From positions 310,001 to 374,000 of the forward strand of contig JACPIT010000002.1 in NCBI GenBank assembly GCA_016187945.1: a stretch of DNA of 64,000 nt, in the 5' to 3' direction. A program made the translations under genes and the position numbers. This document shows positions 4,723 to 45,965 of the stretch, in pieces (position 1 is the stretch's first letter; each line of letters opens with the position of its first letter). Origin of the DNA: Opitutia bacterium (GTDB taxonomy: Bacteria > Verrucomicrobiota > Verrucomicrobiia > Opitutales > Opitutaceae). The notes beneath the pieces are model-generated. The model ran no database searches and was not told the DNA's origin. It worked only from the letters and a program-made list of their open reading frames with translations.

Positions 4723-4865
4723 GAAAGCTCCAAGCTCCGACATCCAAGCTCCAGTGAATTTTCAAGACCATCGAACCGCCAATTTCAGACGCGCCGACGC
4801 GGGCATGTTGGAAAATTTGGTTTCTGGAGTTTCTCTGGAGCTTGGAGCTTGGAGCTTGGAGCTTT
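4723..4865. repeat. Heptamer arrays as arms of an inverted repeat, ftsW-murG gap
   Basis: The right side carries four consecutive GAGCTTG-type 7-nt units (about 4835-4865). The left side carries the complement (CCAAGCTC..., 4728-4755). Together they form a long imperfect hairpin covering nearly the whole gap and ending about 20 bases before the murG ATG. No coding signal is seen. Confidence 0.75.
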
Positions 4866-7258: not shown

Positions 7259-7474
7259 ATTTTCGATTTTCGATTCTCGATTCTCGATTGAGCGCAGAGG
7301 CGCACCTAGCCGCGACCGCGCGAGGCGTTGAGGGTGGGAGCGGCTTTACGCCGCAACGCTCAGGCTGCGCGGTTCCCGTATTCGCGAATTTCGATCGCTG
7401 GGTCTAAACCCCCTTTCCACCGATCAGACTCAGCTTTTCTTCCGAAATCGAAAATCGAGAATCCAAAATCGAAA
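7259..7474. repeat. murB-ddl gap: heptamer arrays at both ends
   Basis: The gap opens with four or five TTTCGAT/TCTCGAT 7-nt units (7259-7290) and closes with the complementary type (CGAAAAT, CGAGAAT, CCAAAAT, CGAAAAT; 7444-7474), so it could fold as a stem with heptamer arms. Between them lies one half of a GAGCGGCTTTACGCCGC palindrome (about 7340-7360). The array abuts the ddl ATG, so the leader just before the start is repeat and holds no Shine-Dalgarno motif. Confidence 0.75.
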
Positions 7475-8404
7475 ATGTCCTCGCCCACCATCGCCGTCTT
7501 CGCCGGCGGCACCTCTCCTGAACGTGAAGTCTCGCTCGGCTCCGGCAAGGCGGCCGCGCTCGCACTCGCCACGTCGTTCCCGACGCAATTGTTCAACATC
7601 GAAGCCGACGCGCTGCCCGCGGACCTGGATCCGCGCCGCCACGTCGTCTTCTCGACGCTGCACGGCGTGTTCGGCGAGGACGGCGGCATGCAGCGCCTCC
7701 TCGAGCAGGCGGGCGTCGCCTACGCCGGTTGCGACGCCGCGGGCTCGGAACTCTGCTTCGACAAGTGGCGCACGCGTCAGGCGGTGTCCGCGATGGGCGT
7801 GCGCGTCGCGCCGGGCCGCGCCTTCGACGTGACGAACAAGCCGAAGGCCTCGGTCCTCTCCGACGAACTCGGCGAGCAGGTCGTGCTCAAGCCGAACCGC
7901 CAGGGCAGCAGCGTCGGTCTCCAGATGATTTCGTCGCGCGCCGGTCTCGAGATCGCGATCGCGACGGTGCGGCAGGGCGATTGGGTGATCGAAAAGCGCA
8001 TCGTCGGCCGCGAGCTGACCGTCGGCATCCTGCGCGGTCGCGCGATGGGCGTCGTCGAGATCGCGCCGAAGTCGGGCGTATTCGACTACACGAGCAAATA
8101 CACCAAGGGCCTTACCGAATACACCGCCCCCGCGCCGCTCTCGGCCGAGCAGACCGCCGAAGTGCAGCGCGCCGCCGAGACCGCGTTCGCGGCGTGCGGC
8201 TGCCGCGACTACGCGCGCATCGACTTCATCCTCGCGCCGGACGGCGAACTTTATCTGCTGGAAATCAACACGCTGCCCGGCATGAAAGAGACGAGCCTCT
8301 TGCCGATGAGCGCTCGTTGCGTGGGCCTCGATTTCAACGCGCTTTGCCGCGAACTGGTCGCGCCCGCCCTCGAGCGTTTCGCCGGCGTCACCACGAAGAA
8401 ATGA
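7475..8404 (+). CDS. ddl: D-alanine--D-alanine ligase
   Basis: Ddl makes the D-Ala-D-Ala dipeptide of the wall stem peptide. The 309-residue product is an ATP-grasp protein. It shows the N-terminal FAGGTSPEREVSLGSG, the ATP-binding VLKPNRQGSSVGL, the flexible lid around FDYTSKYTKG, and the metal-binding ARIDFILAP and LLEINTLPGM. The frame is open upstream, but ATG 7475 puts the EREVS motif at the usual position. Its TGA overlaps the ftsQ ATG, so the two are translationally coupled. Confidence 0.95.
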   Translation: MSSPTIAVFAGGTSPEREVSLGSGKAAALALATSFPTQLFNIEADALPADLDPRRHVVFSTLHGVFGEDGGMQRLLEQAGVAYAGCDAAGSELCFDKWRTRQAVSAMGVRVAPGRAFDVTNKPKASVLSDELGEQVVLKPNRQGSSVGLQMISSRAGLEIAIATVRQGDWVIEKRIVGRELTVGILRGRAMGVVEIAPKSGVFDYTSKYTKGLTEYTAPAPLSAEQTAEVQRAAETAFAACGCRDYARIDFILAPDGELYLLEINTLPGMKETSLLPMSARCVGLDFNALCRELVAPALERFAGVTTKK

Positions 8405-38217: not shown

Positions 38218-39542
38218 ATGACACGGCTTTCGTAGCGCAGGCGTCTCGCCTGCTGCGGGCAACGTTGCAGGCGAGACGCCTGCGCTACCGCGGAAGCTTC
38301 GCTGTCGGGGTGGCGCTCCTTGCGACGGTGTCGGTCGCGGCGCGTGATTTTGCGGTCACCGATTTCGGCGCTGTCGCGAACGATGCCGTGCTCGACACTG
38401 CGGCGATTCAGCGCGCGATCGACGAGGCCACCGCGGCCGGCGGAGGGCGCGTCGTTCTCGCCGGCGGCGTGTTTCGCAGCGGCGCGCTCTTTCTCCGGCA
38501 AGGCGTCGAGTTTCACGTCGCTGCCGGCACGACGTTGCTCGGTTCGAATCGCATCGAGGATTACCCGCGCGCGCCGACGCGCATCGAGGGCAAGCGGCAG
38601 GAGTGGCGCGTAGCGTTGCTCAACGCGGCCAACCTCACCGGCGTGCGCATCACCGGCGCGGGCGTCGTCGACGGCAACGGCATCCTGTTCTGGGCGGCGT
38701 TCTGGCAGCGGCGGAAGGAGAATCCAAAGTGCACCAACCTCGAGGTGGAGCGGCCGCGGATGATGTTCCTCGATTCGTGTCGCGACGTGCGAATCGAGGG
38801 GCTGACGTTTCGCGATTCGGGTTTCTGGAATTTGCACCTCTACCGTTGCCGCGATGTCGCGATCGAGGGCGTGACGATCAAGGCGCCCGACTCTGGCAGT
38901 ATTCGCGCGCCGAGCTCGGACGGCATCGATCTCGATAGCTGCCGCGATGTCGTCGTGCGGCGGACCGCGATCTCGGTGGGCGACGACTGCATCGCGTTGA
39001 AAGGCACGAAAGGGCCGCACGCCGACCAGGACGCGGATAGCCCGCCCGTGGAGAATATTTTGATCGAAGACTGCACGTTCGGCGAAGGACACGGCGTGCT
39101 GACCTGCGGCAGCGAGGCGACGCTCGTGCGGAACGTCACGGTGCGCCGCTGCACAGTGACCGGCGCGAACAATCTGCTCAGCCTCAAGCTGCGGCGCGAC
39201 ACGCCGCAGCGTTACGAGGACATCGTGGTCGAGGACATCGAGCTGAACGTTGCGGCGGGCGGACGGCTGCTCAAAGTGCAACCGTGGGCGCAGTTCTTCG
39301 ATCTCGGCGGCGAGCCGCAGCCGCGTGTGAGCGTGAAGAACGTCACGGTGCGCAACGTGCGCGGCACGATCGGCGGCGTGGGCACGTTGGTGACGCACGA
39401 GACGGCGACGATCGAGGGATTCACGCTCGAAAACATCGAGCTGACGGTGGCGGACGCGAAGCTGGTGGCGACGGACGGCGTCGGGCTGACGGTGAAGAAC
39501 GTGGCCGTGAACGGCACGGTGTTGGAGCGGGTGGCGAGGTAG
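38214..39542 (+). CDS. Glycoside hydrolase family 28 (polygalacturonase-type), palindrome in its N-terminus
   Basis: GH28 enzymes cut galacturonan or related pectic chains in a beta-helix. The 442-residue protein has the family motifs SDGIDLDS (Asp 236), GDDCIALK (Asp 257-258), GHGVLTCGSE (His 293), and SLKLR in place of RIK. The first about 25 residues come from a palindromic repeat (38232-38288). A hydrophobic signal segment (GSFAVGVALLATVSVAA) follows. GTG 38214 overlaps the previous stop; TTG 38265, inside the palindrome, would give a shorter but good signal peptide. Confidence 0.88.
   Translation: MNDTAFVAQASRLLRATLQARRLRYRGSFAVGVALLATVSVAARDFAVTDFGAVANDAVLDTAAIQRAIDEATAAGGGRVVLAGGVFRSGALFLRQGVEFHVAAGTTLLGSNRIEDYPRAPTRIEGKRQEWRVALLNAANLTGVRITGAGVVDGNGILFWAAFWQRRKENPKCTNLEVERPRMMFLDSCRDVRIEGLTFRDSGFWNLHLYRCRDVAIEGVTIKAPDSGSIRAPSSDGIDLDSCRDVVVRRTAISVGDDCIALKGTKGPHADQDADSPPVENILIEDCTFGEGHGVLTCGSEATLVRNVTVRRCTVTGANNLLSLKLRRDTPQRYEDIVVEDIELNVAAGGRLLKVQPWAQFFDLGGEPQPRVSVKNVTVRNVRGTIGGVGTLVTHETATIEGFTLENIELTVADAKLVATDGVGLTVKNVAVNGTVLERVAR
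38232..38288. repeat. Perfect palindrome at the start of the GH28 gene
   Basis: The 22-base arms (GTAGCGCAGGCGTCTCGCCT... and complement) match perfectly around a 13-base loop. Its 57 bases are 19 open codons in the GH28 frame. A relative is at 54113-54176, in a non-coding gap. Confidence 0.92.
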
Positions 39543-39642: not shown

Positions 39643-39722
39643 TGTAGGAGCGGCTTTACGCCGCGATGGGTTTGGACGCGGCATGCGCCACGCAGCAATC
39701 GCGGCGTAAAGCCGCTCCTACA
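39643..39722. repeat. Dispersed palindrome (TGTAGGAGCGGCTTTACG family)
   Basis: Perfect arms of 24 bases (39643-39666 and 39699-39722). A half copy lies in the murB-ddl gap near 7340. A third short hairpin (about 39751-39766) follows and touches the uvrA stop codon. Confidence 0.88.
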
Positions 39723-39767: not shown

Positions 39768-42700
39768 CTACTTTTTCAGCTTTGCGCGCAGATACGGTGC
39801 GGTCGGGCTGCGTTTCACCTTCTGGATGCCGGCGAGCGGGCCCTGGTAGAGGATCTCGCCGCCGTTCGGGCCGCCGCCGGGGCCGAGTTCGATCAGCCAG
39901 TCGGCTTCGGCGAGCAGGTCGAGGTGGTGCTCGATCACGACGACGGTGTGGCCGTGATCGACGAGGTTGTGCAGCACGCGGATGAGTTTCTCACAGTCGC
40001 TGAGGTGCAGGCCAATCGTCGGCTCCTCGAGCAGGTAAAGATTCTTGATCGCGATGCCGCGCGAGCGCTCGGTGTAGCTTTGCAGGCCCTTCGTGAGTTC
40101 CGTGACGAGCTTGAGGCGCTGCGCTTCGCCGCCGGAGAGCGTCGGGCTGCTCTGGCCGAGCGTGAGGTAGCCGAGTCCGCACGCGACCATCAGCTCGCAG
40201 ACTTCCTTCAGTTGCGCGTGGAAGTCGAAGAACGTCGCGGCCTCTTCAAACGTGAGCTGGAGCACCTGGCCGATGTTTTTTCCCTTCCAGGTGATGTCGG
40301 TCAGCTCGGGGCCGTAGCGGCTGCCGCCGCAGTCCTCGCACGGCTGGTAGGAGTCGGGCATGAAGGCCATCTCGAGCTTGATGCGTCCGGCGCCGGAGCA
40401 GGTTTCGCAGCGTCCGCCGGCAGTGTTGAACGAGAAACGGCTGGCGCTGTAGCCGCGGACTTTCGACTCGGGGAGCGACGCGAAGAACTGACGGATGAGA
40501 TCGAAGATGCCGAGGTAAGTCGCGGGCGTGGAGCGCGGCGTTTTGCCGATGGGGGATTGGTCGACTTCGATCACTGCTTTGAAGCCCTGCGCTCCGCGCA
40601 GTTCTTCAAAGGGCATTTTCGATTTTTGATTCTCGATTTTCGATTGGTCGGCCTCGAAGCCGGTGAGTTTGACGAAGTCGCGGCCGGTGAGGCGGGCTTT
40701 GTTTTTCTTGATCGCGCAGGTGACGGCGGGGTGCAGCACGTCGCGGAAGAGCGTGGATTTGCCGGCGCCGCTCGGGCCGCAAACCATCACGAGTCGGCCG
40801 AGCGGGAGTGCGAGGAATTGGTCGGCGAGGTTGCGGTAATTGATGTGGGTGAGTTCGAGCCAGCCGTGGTGGAGCGCGTTGACCCCAAGGCGCTCGGAAC
40901 GGGTTGAGGTCAACCCGTTCCACCGTTGCACCGGGCGGTATTCGCCGCGGAGCGGGTGCGGGATGCCTTTCGCAAGGAAGAGGCCGGTGAGGGAACTGGT
41001 GTTCGCTTTGATCTCGTCGGGCGTGCCGTTGGCGAGGACTTCGCCGCCGTGGAGGCCGGCGCCGGGGCCGAGGTCGATGATGCGATCGGCGCGTTCCATG
41101 AGCACGTCGTCGTGCTCGACCACGAGGAGCGTGTTGCCCTTTGTGCGGAGCGCTTGGAGCGTTTCGATCAGGCGGTCGTTGTCGCGGGCGTGCAGGCCGA
41201 TGGAGGGCTCGTCGAGGACGTAGAGGACGCCGGTGAGGTTTGAGCCGAGTTGCGCGGCGAGGCGGATGCGCTGGGCTTCGCCGCCGGAGAGCGTTTCGGT
41301 GGGGCGGTCGAGTGCGAGGTAGTCGAGGCCGACGTGGGCGAGGAAGCGCAGGCGCTCCTCGATTTGCGGCACGATGTCCTGCGTGATGAGCTTGCCGCGG
41401 GTCGCGAGCTGGAGATTGCGCAGTGTGGCGATGAGTTCGTCGGGTGTGAGACGGAGGAGTTGGGGCAGCGAGATCGCGGACGACTGGTAGGGCGAGTCAT
41501 CTCGACGAGCCGTTTCGGCGAGCGCGGAGTCGTGCGCCGCGGCTCGTCGGGGACGACTCGCCCTACCTTTCAGCGGCAGTTTCACGGCGCGGGCGATGCG
41601 GTTGAGGCGTTCGCCGTGGCAGGTGGGGCAGAGTTTGCCGTTGCTGGAGGGATCGTCGGGGTCGAAGTGGCGGAGCGCGTCGGCGACTTCGTCGGACATT
41701 TCCTCGTCTTCGTCGGGTTTGAGCATCCAGTCGAAGATGCGGCCGTGGCCGCGGCAGGTGGGGCACCAGCCTTTGGGCGAGTTGAACGAGAAGTGTTTCG
41801 GGTCGAGCTCGGGGAAGGACTCGCCGGTTTCGATGTCGGTGCGCGTGGTGGAAAACCAGCTCAGGACGCGGTTATCCGGTGTGACGAGGAAGCAGGAGCC
41901 CTTGCCGAGGCGCAGGGCTTCGGAAAGTTGAGAGCTGAGAGTTGAGAGCTGAGAGCTGGGTTTCTTGCGCGACGGCTCGTCGGGGACGACTCGCCCTACC
42001 TGCTTCAAGTCCGCGACGACGACTTCGATGTCGTGCTCTTTGTAGCGGTCGAGTTTGGTGAAGGTGTCGACGCGCAGCAGGCGGCCGTCGGCGCGCATGA
42101 GTTCGTAGCCCTGTTTGCCGATCCATTTGGCGATCGGCTCGTGGTGGCCCTTGCGGCCGCGGATGAGCGGGGCGCAGAGGTAGAGGTGCTTGGCTTTGCG
42201 CGCGGCGGGGGTGGCGAGCGTCTTGTCGAGGAGCGCGCGCATCTGCGCGGGCGAGAGCGGCGTGACGGGGCGGTCGGTGTCCGGGTGGTGTTGCACGCCG
42301 AGGCGCGCGTAGAGGAGGCGGAGGTATTGCGCGACCTCGGTGATCGTCGCGACGGTCGACTTGCGAGAGCCGCGCGTGACGCGTTGCTCGATCGCGACGG
42401 TGGGCGGGATGCCGGTGAGGCGATCGATGTCGGGGCGCGGGAGCTGTTCGACGAACTGGCGCGCGTAGGGCGACATCGATTCCATGAAGCGGCGCTGGCC
42501 CTCGGCGAAGATGATGTCGAACGCGAGCGTCGACTTGCCCGAGCCGGAAACGCCGGTGACGACGGTGAGTTCGCGGTGCGGGATCGAGAGGGAGATGTTC
42601 TTGAGGTTGTTCTCGCGAGCGCCGAGGAGCTCGAGGGATTTTCGATTTTCGATTCTCGATCTTCGATTGCCGGATTCGTAGGGGGCGGCGTCCTCCGCGG

Positions 42701-45700
42701 CGGCGGCGAGGGGCTCGGATTCTGCGAGGGCGGCGCGGAGGAAGGGGGAGGTCTCGGTGGCGGCGGCGGCGATTTGTTCGGGGGGGCCTTCGGCGACGAT
42801 GCGGCCGCCGCCAGCGCCGGCTTCGGGGCCGACTTCGAGAATCCAGTCGGCGGACTTCAGCACGTCGAGGTTGTGCTCGATGACGATCACGCTGTGTCCG
42901 GCGTCGACGATGCGCTGGAGGACGGAGAGCAGGCGCTTCACGTCGTGGCGGTGGAGGCCGGTGGTGGGCTCGTCCAGCAGGAGCAGAGCTCCTGCGGAAT
43001 TTTCGATTTTGGGTTCTCGATTTTCGATTTCGGACGGAGCGGTGGGCAGTGCGCTGTTGGCGTCGGCCGTGAGCTGATCGCTGATCGCTGAGGGCTGAGC
43101 GCCAGCAGCGGCCTCGCGGGAGCTCGGCCCTCCATTAGTGGAGGCGTATTCGCTGAGGTAGCGGACGAGTTTCAGGCGCTGCGATTCGCCGCCGGAGAGG
43201 GTGTTGAGCGGCTGGCCGAGCGTGAGGTAGCCGAGACCGACGGCGTCGAGGGCGGCGAGGCGCTTGCGGATCGTCGCGTGTTCGGCGAAGAGTGCGAGGG
43301 CGTCGGCGATCGTGGTGCCGAGGAGATCGGAGACGGATTTGCCGTTCCACTGGATCGCGAGCACCTCGGGCTTGAAGCGACGGCCTTCGCAGATCGGGCA
43401 GGGGACGAAGACGTCGGAGAGAAACTGCATCTCGACGCGTTCGCAGCCGAGGCCTTGGCAATGGTCGCAGCGGCCTTCGCCGCTGTTGAAGGAAAAGCTC
43501 GAGGCATTGAAGCCGGCTTCCTGCGCGGCGGGCGTTTGCGCGTAGAGGTCGCGGATGAGATCCCAGGCTTCGCTGTAGAGGGCGGGGTTCGAGCGCGGCG
43601 TGCGCGAGAGCGGGGATTGGTCGACGAGGACGATTTCGGAGAACGCGCCCGCGGCGGGCGCGAGTTGAGAGTTGAGAGTTGAGAGCTGAGAACCGGCTAA
43701 AGGTTGAGGGTTGAGAGTTGAGGGTTGAGAGACGGAGATGGCTTCGAACGTCGCCGGATCTTCGGTCATCTGGTTTCGCTGCGTGAGCAGGCCCTGGTAG
43801 ATGACGTTGTCGAGGAGAGTGGATTTGCCGGAGCCGGAAACGCCGGAGAGGCAGACGAGGCGCTGCAGCGGCAGGCGGAAGCTGAGGTCGCGGATGTTGT
43901 GCTTCGAGGCGCGGTGGAAATGCAGCCAACGAGTGGGCGCGGCGGGCAGTGATTTCAGCGCGGCGGTAGCCGCGCCCTCCACCGGGCGGCGTTGCGCGGG
44001 AACCTCGACGGACTCGCGGCCGGAGAGGTAGCGGCCGGTGATGCTGCGCGGGGAGCGGAGGAGCGCGGCGACGTCGCCTTGGAAAACGACTTCGCCGCCG
44101 CGGGCGCCGGGCTCAGGGCCGATCTCGAGGACGTGGTCGGCGGCGCGGATCATCGCTTCATCGTGTTCGACGACGACGACCGTGTTGCCGGTGTCGGTGA
44201 GCGTGCGGATGATGCCGATGAGGCGGTCGATGTCGCGCGGGTGCAGGCCGACGGACGGTTCGTCGAGGACGAAGAGCGTGTCGACGAGCGAGGTGCCGAG
44301 GCAGGATGTAAGGTTGACGCGCTCGACTTCGCCGCCGGAGAGCGTGCGCGAGGAGCGGTCGAGCGTGAGATAGCCGAGGCCGACTTGCTCAAGATAGCGC
44401 AGGCGCGTGACGATGGAGTCGTAGGCCAGCGTGGCGCTGTGCGCCTCGGCGATTTTCGATTTTGGATGGCTGAGGCTCTGCGAGCTGGACTCGATTTTCG
44501 ATTTCCGGATCAGCGCGAGGAGGTCGCTGACGGGAAGCTGGTAGAGTTGCGGGAGCGTGTAGCCGCGCCATTGCCAGCAGAGCGCTTCAGGTTGGAGGCG
44601 CGCGCCTTTGCACTCGGGGCAGGGGTTGTAGGCACGGTAGCGCGAGAGGAAGACGCGCACGTGCATCTTGTAAGTCGTCTTCTCGAGGTAGCGGAAGAAA
44701 CCCTTCAGGCCATACCACAGCTTCGGCCAGCAGCGCGCGGGGTCGTCGCTGTTGTAGCCGGATGAGCCGTCGATGACGAAGGCCTTGTGCTCGGCGGAGA
44801 GGTCGGCGAACGGGACGTCGGTGGGGATACCGAGTTTTTTGGTGAACTGGAGGAGATCGCGTTTCGATTCGCCGTAGATTTCGCCTTCCCACGGTTTCAC
44901 GGCGCCTTGTTCGATCGAGAGCGAGTGGTCGGGGATCGCGAGGCGGTAGTCGATGTCGATGACGCGGCCGAAGCCGCGGCAGACGGGGCACGCGCCGACG
45001 GGCGAGTTGAACGAGAAGAGCGCGGGCGATGCGGGACGGAACGTGCGGCCGGTTTTCGGCGAGTGCAGGCCGCGGGAGTAGTGCCCGCAGGGCACTAGTT
45101 GAGAGTTGAGAGTTGAGGGTTGAGCGACGGAAGAGACCGGTGCTTGAAAGAGGAAGACCTCGCCCTGGCCGAAGTGCAGGGCGGTTTCGGTGGCTTCGAG
45201 GAAGCGCGGCTTGTTTTCTGCGGCGATGCGGAGGCGATCCTGGATGACGAAGAGGTGCGTCGTGTGTTTAAGCGCGGTGTCGGGCTTGGCGGCGAGGAGG
45301 TCGTCGAGTGTGGCGAGGGCGAGTGCGCCGACGGCGGGCGAGGAACCCGCGCCCGGAGGTCGCGGGCTACCGTTCGGCGTGAGGACGCGGGTGTAGCCTT
45401 GGTTCTTGAGCGGCGGGAGGATTTCCGACCACGGCAGTTTGTCGGGCTTCGCGATCTTGAAGGCGACGAGTAGCGTGGCGGCGGGATGCGCGGCGAAGGT
45501 TTTTGCCCAGATCGTTTGCGGGTTGTCGTCTTCGACTTTCTCGCCGGTCTCGGGATCGAAGCACTCGGCGACGTGGCTGAACCAGACTTTCGCGAAGTCC
45601 GTGAGCTCGGTCATCGTGCCGACGGTGGAGCGCGAGGTCTTGACCGTGTTGGTCTGCTCGATGGCGATGGACGGGCGGATGTTTTCGACGGAGTCGACCT

Positions 45701-45965
45701 TGGGTTTGCCGAGCAGGTCGAGGAACTGGCGCGTGTAGGCGGAGAACGTCTCGACGTAGCGCCGCTGGCCTTCGGCGTGGAGCGTGTCGAACACGAGCGA
45801 GGACTTGCCGGCGCCGCTGAGGCCGGTGACGACGATGTATTTCTCGAGCGGGAGATCGAGGTCGAAGCCCTTGAGGTTGTTCTGGCGGACGCCGCGCAGA
45901 CGGATGAATTCAGGCGAGGAGGGACGCACTGAAACGACGGATGAGCAGCGCGCGCGGAAAGGCAA
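39768..45965 (-). CDS. uvrA: Double-length UvrA (two fused UvrA units) with about ten repeat insertions
   Basis: UvrA finds DNA damage in nucleotide excision repair. This 2065-residue protein carries four ABC ATPase modules, i.e. two UvrA copies fused: Walker A loops near residues 48, 703, 1136 and 1730 ([36 protein letters not shown]), several LSGGE signatures, and zinc-binding cysteine pairs such as CETC...CEDC. Chlamydial UvrA is likewise double, at roughly 1800 residues. Much of the extra length here is repeat-derived peptide at about residues 198-212, 281-290, 487-505, 745-768, 944-990, 1099-1110, 1322-1347, 1467-1494, 1681-1700 and 1774-1784, all outside the ATPase motifs. Confidence 0.95.
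40615..40646. repeat. Heptamer array translated in uvrA
   Basis: Units of the CGAAAAT/CGAGAAT type (on the uvrA strand) encode SKIENQKSK, next to the fourth ATPase module. Confidence 0.85.
40868..40924. repeat. Palindrome translated in uvrA (GGTGGAGCGCGTTGA family)
   Basis: 57 bases, 19 codons, read as [20 protein letters not shown]. Family members are at 6226 and inside mnmA at 18620. Confidence 0.88.
41486..41567. repeat. Palindrome translated in uvrA (GGTAGGGCGAGTCGTC family)
   Basis: The arms GGTAGGGCGAGTCATCTCGA and complement flank an inner GC-rich loop. It is read as [20 protein letters not shown] and following residues. Confidence 0.88.
41926..42000. repeat. Heptamer array plus half palindrome translated in uvrA
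   Basis: Five units of GTTGAGA/GCTGAGA (41926-41958) encode [11 protein letters not shown] on the uvrA strand. They are joined to one arm of the GGTAGGGCGAGTCGTC family (about 41973-42000), read as GRVVPDEPS. Confidence 0.87.
42637..42669. repeat. Heptamer array translated in uvrA
   Basis: Encodes SRIENRKS at the junction between the two UvrA units, just before the third ATPase module. Confidence 0.83.
42997..43136. repeat. Composite repeat insertion translated in uvrA
   Basis: About 140 bases containing three repeat types: CGAAAAT heptamers ([10 protein letters not shown]), GCTGATC/GCTGAGG heptamers ([10 protein letters not shown]) and one arm of the TGGAGGGCCGAGCTC palindrome (GGPSSREAA). 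It lies between the signature region and the Walker B DEPTTGL of the second module. Confidence 0.88.
43662..43732. repeat. Double GTTGAGA heptamer array translated in uvrA
   Basis: Two arrays of GTTGAGA/GTTGAGG units separated by about ten bases. They encode [10 protein letters not shown] and [10 protein letters not shown], a seven-residue period arising from 3 x 7 nt. Confidence 0.9.
44451..44506. repeat. Paired heptamer segments translated in uvrA
   Basis: Two short CGAAAAT-type segments flank a spacer and are read as [19 protein letters not shown]. Confidence 0.8.
45096..45125. repeat. GTTGAGA heptamer array translated in uvrA
   Basis: Four units, read as [10 protein letters not shown] on the uvrA strand, in the first insertion region after the first ATPase motif. 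Confidence 0.87.
45328..45372. repeat. Short palindrome translated in uvrA
   Basis: AACCCGCGCCC and CGCGGGCT arms around GGAGGT. It is read as [13 protein letters not shown], near residues 198-210. Confidence 0.65.

Follow-up and report, generated by a model that had tools for sequence, protein, structure and literature searches.

In-frame heptamer arrays and REP-type palindromes in the linkers of a double uvrA gene of an Opitutaceae bacterium

The double uvrA gene of an Opitutia bacterium (Opitutaceae) raises the question of how short dispersed repeats come to lie in frame within a repair gene, and why they are so dense there. The gene is located in a 64,000-nucleotide stretch of contig JACPIT010000002.1 (assembly GCA_016187945.1, positions 310,001 to 374,000), which is called the window and to which plain coordinates refer. 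A minus-strand open frame (45965-39768, 2,065 codons) codes for two UvrA units in tandem, and codon usage in a home-made gene caller favors the GTG at 45929 as its start. The protein scores 1744 bits against the NCBIfam UvrA model, and the best 39 Foldseek matches of its second-half model are solved UvrA proteins. It has Walker A, LSGGE, and Walker B motifs; the last Walker B, LLEEP, is identical to the consensus of 40 family members. Like the chlamydial double UvrA (NCBIfam NF001885, model length 1,809 positions), the protein consists of two fused UvrA units. It differs in that it scores below the curated cut-off of that model (1,027 vs 3,054 bits) and in that an ordinary UvrA (open frame of 995 residues) is present in the same genome as well. 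Counted from roughly a common starting point, the protein has 1,891-2,117 residues in 20 relatives (median ~1,975; five shortest 1,891-1,919). On this scale the double UvrA described here has ~2,060 residues and exceeds the shortest relatives by ~145-170, so that the ~250 extra residues over a chlamydial length of ~1800 in the first-pass annotation were an overestimate.

The gene harbors 15 repeat-like elements that total 525 nt (175 codons), all in frame and all in 11 variable linkers. By eye and by sequence, nine stretches of heptamer arrays and six REP-type palindromes (two of them dimers) can be differentiated. The array words are CTCTCAA (A), AATCGAA (B), and ATCAGCG (D). Relatives are denoted by G numbers and loci by L numbers.

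39768..45929, minus strand: double uvrA, 2,053 residues from GTG; open frame from 45965.
45344..45371, minus strand: REP R2, GTAG type, linker 1 (residues ~199-208); also in G007 and G008, absent in G001, G003, G012, and G005.
45097..45124, minus strand: heptamer array A, linker 2 (QPSTLNSQL); a different array in G001, none in G007, G003, G012, and G005.
44450..44504, minus strand: heptamer array B, linker 3, split by 24 nt (44490-44504 and 44450-44465); under the lag-test cut.
43958..43982, minus strand: palindrome R3 with a GTGG start, in linker 4, which separates the two ATPase units of the first half.
43662..43731, minus strand: two heptamer A arrays, linker 5; among 20 relatives, only G001 has arrays at the site.
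43109..43136, minus strand: REP R6, linker 6; the same sequence flanks the RAYT-like gene of L165.
43073..43099, minus strand: heptamer array D (ATCAGCG), linker 6; from the lag test.
42996..43030, minus strand: heptamer array B, linker 6; under the lag-test cut.
42636..42668, minus strand: heptamer array B, in linker 7, which joins the two UvrA halves; from the lag test and the congener comparison.
41973..42000, minus strand: REP R1, linker 8; read in another frame, as GRVVPDEP.
41928..41958, minus strand: heptamer array A, linker 8; from the lag test.
41486..41567, minus strand: REP R1 dimer, linker 9; R1 flanks the RAYT-like gene of L166.
40868..40924, minus strand: REP R4 dimer, GTGG start, linker 10; similar in G005.
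40614..40645, minus strand: heptamer array B, linker 11; here G001 has an array of a different word and G007 has no array.

The at least five heptamer segments and several palindromes without frameshift or stop that had been reported at first sight are borne out by these counts. The peptides had been read correctly as STLNSQL (array A), the SKIENRK type (B), GRASRPRR (R1), and SERLGVNAL (R4 dimer). R1 occurs twice in the gene and is read in two frames. On the translation, the inserts do lie outside of the Walker A, LSGGE, and Walker B motifs. A palindrome dimer of a further type, R5, is found directly downstream of uvrA (39644-39721).

Comparison with relatives indicates that the elements were inserted. 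Relative to 20 orthologues (67-89% identical), the double UvrA carries additional residues where the repeats lie, and residues 747-772 are missing in 19-20 of the 20. In the linker DNA of six congeners, a given insert is missing, replaced by a different repeat, or sometimes shared. At linker 9, where this genome has the R1 dimer, G005 has a shorter dimer of R1, G007 a palindrome resembling R2, G008 yet another palindrome, and G001 a heptamer array; G003 and G012 contain none of these elements at that position. In linker 4, R3 is the same in G007, and G001 and G005 have other palindromes. In linker 7, an array of the word AATCCAA takes the same place in G007 and a mixed array is present in G003. 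Inserts common to G001, G005, G007, or G008 may be old. With gaps or other repeats at the same linkers of congeners and with copies elsewhere, the proposed insertion is supported. Conservation of the same peptides in distant UvrA proteins, which would speak against it, was looked for and is absent from the distant orthologues.

The heptamer period was assessed in 464 kb of the genome, namely 20 evenly spaced 20-kb stretches and the window, which was itself chosen by the finding; a further 40 stretches were picked for holding A or B arrays. At the stricter cut, a blind lag test of the 464 kb yields 16 arrays of period 7 and 0-3 arrays at any of the other periods between 4 and 22, apart from period 14, a multiple of 7, with five. 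At the looser cut, 22 period-7 arrays are found, seven of them inside double uvrA. The next genes have two each among 331 called genes, so that the gene is indeed the densest target within this sample. This sharp period, the empty or differently filled sites of congeners, and the stop-free reading of nearly all matches listed, single-contig genomes included, make it most improbable that the inserts are chance low-complexity linkers or assembly errors, even though the linkers are low in complexity and one internal stop occurs in a few order-level relatives (G055, G038, and G047 among the matches listed).

A genome search with word B at up to three mismatches gives 54 matches and none for the reversed control. 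AATCGAA has 71 matches here, overlapping ones counted, compared with none in G001 and one in G007, the two nearest relatives by double UvrA protein; G007 has few arrays, mostly of AATCCAA words, and linker 7 of its uvrA holds one of these. The search with word A gives at least 115 matches and at least 110 for its reversed control, which is uninformative because the word is almost its own mirror. Both words are patchy in distribution: B occurs in 18/57 relatives and in 15/194 genomes of a phylum sample, and A in 9/57 relatives. The arrays keep to about four units, with median lengths of 29 nt for A (n=37), 32 nt for B (n=42), and 31 nt in the uvrA of other orthologues (n=45). An identical 31-nt permutation is present at 11 places of the genome, and inverted array pairs are common (10 pairs). 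Polymerase slippage has been proposed by others at 7 nt (told in passages of PMC4679880), and arrays made on the spot rather than carried in would fit the prominent period and the difference in words between species. A local process yields neither an identical 31-nt permutation at 11 places nor inverted pairs, and the constant length of about four units also argues against it, which leaves slippage a doubtful origin.

Inverted arms resemble each other no more than randomly drawn arms of one family do (0.915 vs 0.933; 189 of 200 shuffles are as high), and there is therefore no sign that an RNA hairpin is kept. Tracts suited to G-quadruplexes (at least three GGG or CCC) are seen in 9/52 uvrA arrays across the family and in only 2/86 of the genome's own arrays. 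This rarity speaks against quadruplexes as a general explanation for the preference for four units. Since 7 is coprime with 3, every frame of a heptamer array gives the same cyclic heptapeptide. No stop occurs in any sense frame of 46/52 uvrA arrays of the family, and the in-gene reading phases 0/1/2 are mixed (A 11/4/4; B 0/6/7). Array B is stop-free in both directions; all of its in-gene copies (13/13, two in uvrA) give the hydrophilic NRKSKIE type, and none gives FDFRFSI.

The inserts fall into flexible parts of a conserved protein. Core dN/dS of double uvrA is 0.086 against G001, 0.104 against G007, and 0.168 against G003; the linker value of ~0.5 is distrusted because unlike elements were aligned. 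In the second-half model, stretches with pLDDT <50 coincide with all four repeat sites (1325-1340, 1468-1494, 1685-1699, and 1773-1781). In the first-half model such stretches are 500-502, 751-766, 943-989, and 1084-1108, the last being the cut end of the model, and the remaining three linkers show shallower dips. Low-pLDDT segments of at least three residues are also found in the core (five in the first half and three in the second, starts excluded). As most linkers are predicted to be disordered and the core is conserved, in-frame inserts can persist there. Of the two causes named in the first-pass annotation, tolerance by a loose multi-domain protein is thereby supported; taken alone, it fails to explain their density.

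Recurrent mobilization, the second cause, is supported for both kinds of repeat. R1 and R2 start with GGTAG, R3 and R4 have GTGG, and R6 departs from the GTAG/GTGG rule by starting with ATGG. Copies outside of uvrA were found in the 464-kb sample for R1, R2, R4, and R6; R3 has no other copy in this sample and is not counted as dispersed. Genes of Y1 transposases are flanked by R1 in L166, by R6 in L165, and by R5 in L164 (PF01797 E-values of 2.9e-5, 2.2e-5, and 1.2e-6, respectively). Among the six REP types tested, R5 is the most frequent, with 34 matches in 464 kb at up to four mismatches. Two palindrome types of uvrA, R1 and R6, hence match REPs that flank RAYT-like genes of the same genome, so that RAYT-like transposases are the likely movers of the uvrA REPs. 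R2, R3, and R4 flank none of the eight Y1 loci, and heptamer arrays are found at 0/8 of them. For the arrays, recurrent mobilization is supported by their recurrence with different words, although no mover was found for them. An Rfam search of the window gave only a tRNA.

Outside of uvrA, arrays are located both in genes and at junctions. In-frame arrays occur in housekeeping genes (among them DNA polymerase III alpha, 2-oxoacid dehydrogenase subunits, NuoD-like, and PurD-like). Of 20 other array-bearing proteins, 12 have their arrays outside Pfam matches and 8 have at least one array within a match. The E2-like, E3-like, and E1-like 2-oxoacid dehydrogenase genes each carry an in-frame array B (L114 3007, L114 4604, and L117 3046). 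The DNA polymerase III alpha gene at L131 7959-11726 contains three A arrays, two of which form an inverted pair within the called gene. Intergenic A-D arrays sit at co-directional junctions in 45/47 cases, compared with a baseline of 218/310 junctions, in stretches partly chosen for arrays. With the same partial choice of stretches, they are sense near a start in 28/31 cases and antisense near a stop in 16/16. Gene starts are approximate, as three near-start arrays sit 36-40 nt inside the called gene, and the orientation counts exclude arrays of other words such as AAGCTCC. This word shows the opposite polarity (window 4836-4864; L112 1244; L115 3987; L118 7433-7548), and its arrays place TTGGAGC ahead of the start codon, which creates a GGAG like a ribosome-binding site. 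At window ~38310-38400, near the start of a called gene, AQASRLLRATLQARRLRY has the look of what is presumably another repeat.

One junction documents the repeats in a non-coding gap, where they had been noticed from the start:

7259..7476, plus strand: intergenic spacer before a gene taken to be ddl-like, with inverted B arrays flush with the stop (7258) and the start (7475).

In G001, G004, G005, G010, and G011 the two genes overlap, and no spacer is present. This genome, G007, G008, and G002 have a spacer with inverted arrays at its two ends, which are in part degenerate and differ in word; G003 and G012 have a spacer without inverted arrays. The TGA and ATG that overlap in relatives sit on either side of the spacer; this is too little sequence to establish the target-site duplication expected of a MITE-like element with heptamer arms as its ends.

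The pattern extends across the family. A search for related loci gave 75, all labelled Verrucomicrobia or narrower groups within it except for one Geobacter. Among 57 non-redundant orthologues, 49/52 heptamer arrays, of 37 words, fall inside the 11 linkers (442 of 2,065 residues, drawn around variable sites of this gene) and 3/52 outside. As the linkers were defined on this gene, its seven arrays are not independent; without them the figure is 42/45. As many as 12 arrays, from 11 genes, fall in linker 6, and 34/57 orthologues have no array at the cut used. Over 48 loci with a usable gene, relatives not thinned, 47 arrays per 272 kb of double uvrA compare with 9 per 548 kb of flank, about a tenfold density (Fisher 6e-15 per 30-bp bin, likewise unthinned). 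In 20 uvrA loci of relatives, 17 arrays per 130 kb stand against 9 per 400 kb in stretches from relatives. Ordinary uvrA has one array in 17 genes, compared with 17 arrays in 20 double uvrA genes (p 0.02), and 4 of the 17 ordinary frames lack LSGGE and are probably not the gene. Tolerance alone does not account for the array density in double uvrA. The largest number among the 48 loci, eight arrays, belongs to the double uvrA of Ereboglobus (L211), whose second half has 604 residues in open frame and which was omitted from the 57 on length.

The excess over the flanks could reflect selection, if double UvrA gained from long, soluble, changeable linkers or if inserts tuned its activity, and the uniformly hydrophilic reading of in-gene B copies points the same way. 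This orientation bias can equally stem from purging of the hydrophobic reading, linker length and sequence vary between species, and many orthologues (34/57) have no array at the cut; selection is judged unlikely. The best reading, with a probability of roughly 70%, is that mobile or mutational repeats are filtered to the disordered linkers of double UvrA. Two kinds of short repeats would keep entering the genome, REP palindromes and arrays of about four heptamers. The palindromes are probably moved by RAYT-like Y1 transposases, which may have placed the present copies as well. The arrays would arrive as units of ~31 nt, one at a time or in inverted pairs that enclose a spacer. Inserts into folded or catalytic parts would be lost, and in-frame ones in exposed linkers would persist with peptides that are presumably neutral. 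The preference for double uvrA would additionally require an insertion bias, or a slow loss given that deletions survive only if they keep the frame.

Several known systems share parts of this picture. REP insertions in both Opitutus terrae uvrA genes and an REP excess in repair genes have been described (Di Nocera 2013, PMC3733652); most O. terrae GTAG-20 elements contain GTGG, and a mutator idea has been put forward for REP inserts in uvrA (passages of the same paper). The palindromes resemble this GTAG REP/RAYT system in their GTAG/GTGG start, their dimers, and transposase genes flanked by the same REP. In contrast to the present case, the word heptamer is absent from the main text of that paper, whose passages report different repeats at the same site only for recB of two Xanthomonas species and not for uvrA. 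Rickettsial palindromic elements, cited there, are likewise palindromic in-frame insertions in many proteins; they differ in that passages of PMC3733652 describe no heptamer arrays for them. Four-unit heptamers at co-directional junctions of Xanthomonas and Nostoc were tied to quadruplexes (Rehm 2015, PMC4692102). According to passages of that paper, these GGGNATC-type repeats share with the arrays the 7-base unit, the number of about four units, the single or inverted-pair arrangement, the co-directional junctions, and the strand rule, by which repeats next to a stop and repeats next to a start lie on opposite strands. The arrays differ from them by the rarity of G tracts (2/86), by many words per family, and by many in-frame sites in genes, where the published repeats are under-represented (passages of PMC4692102). 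The TAACTGA heptamers of Beggiatoaceae (MacGregor 2015, PMC4679880) are also direct repeats just upstream of start codons, and some lie inside genes in the open direction. Passages of that paper set them apart by a single word, a forward direction that stops all frames, and in-gene copies mostly at gene ends. In the open-licence literature, no report was found of in-gene heptamers in Verrucomicrobia, of word replacement at fixed linkers, or of a double uvrA hotspot.

More tentatively, there may be a process by which four-unit arrays are written or spread into co-directional junctions and protein linkers, with hardly any restriction on the word and with words particular to each lineage. Double uvrA would be its specific sink, perhaps because the process operates via this repair gene or close to it, and quadruplexes would not be its basis. 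On the preferred reading of filtered mobile or mutational repeats, short dispersed repeats steadily supply a conserved repair machine with new peptide. The 57 genes form a natural series of empty and filled linkers, and the question of why repair genes collect repeats, asked in print in 2013, becomes directly testable.
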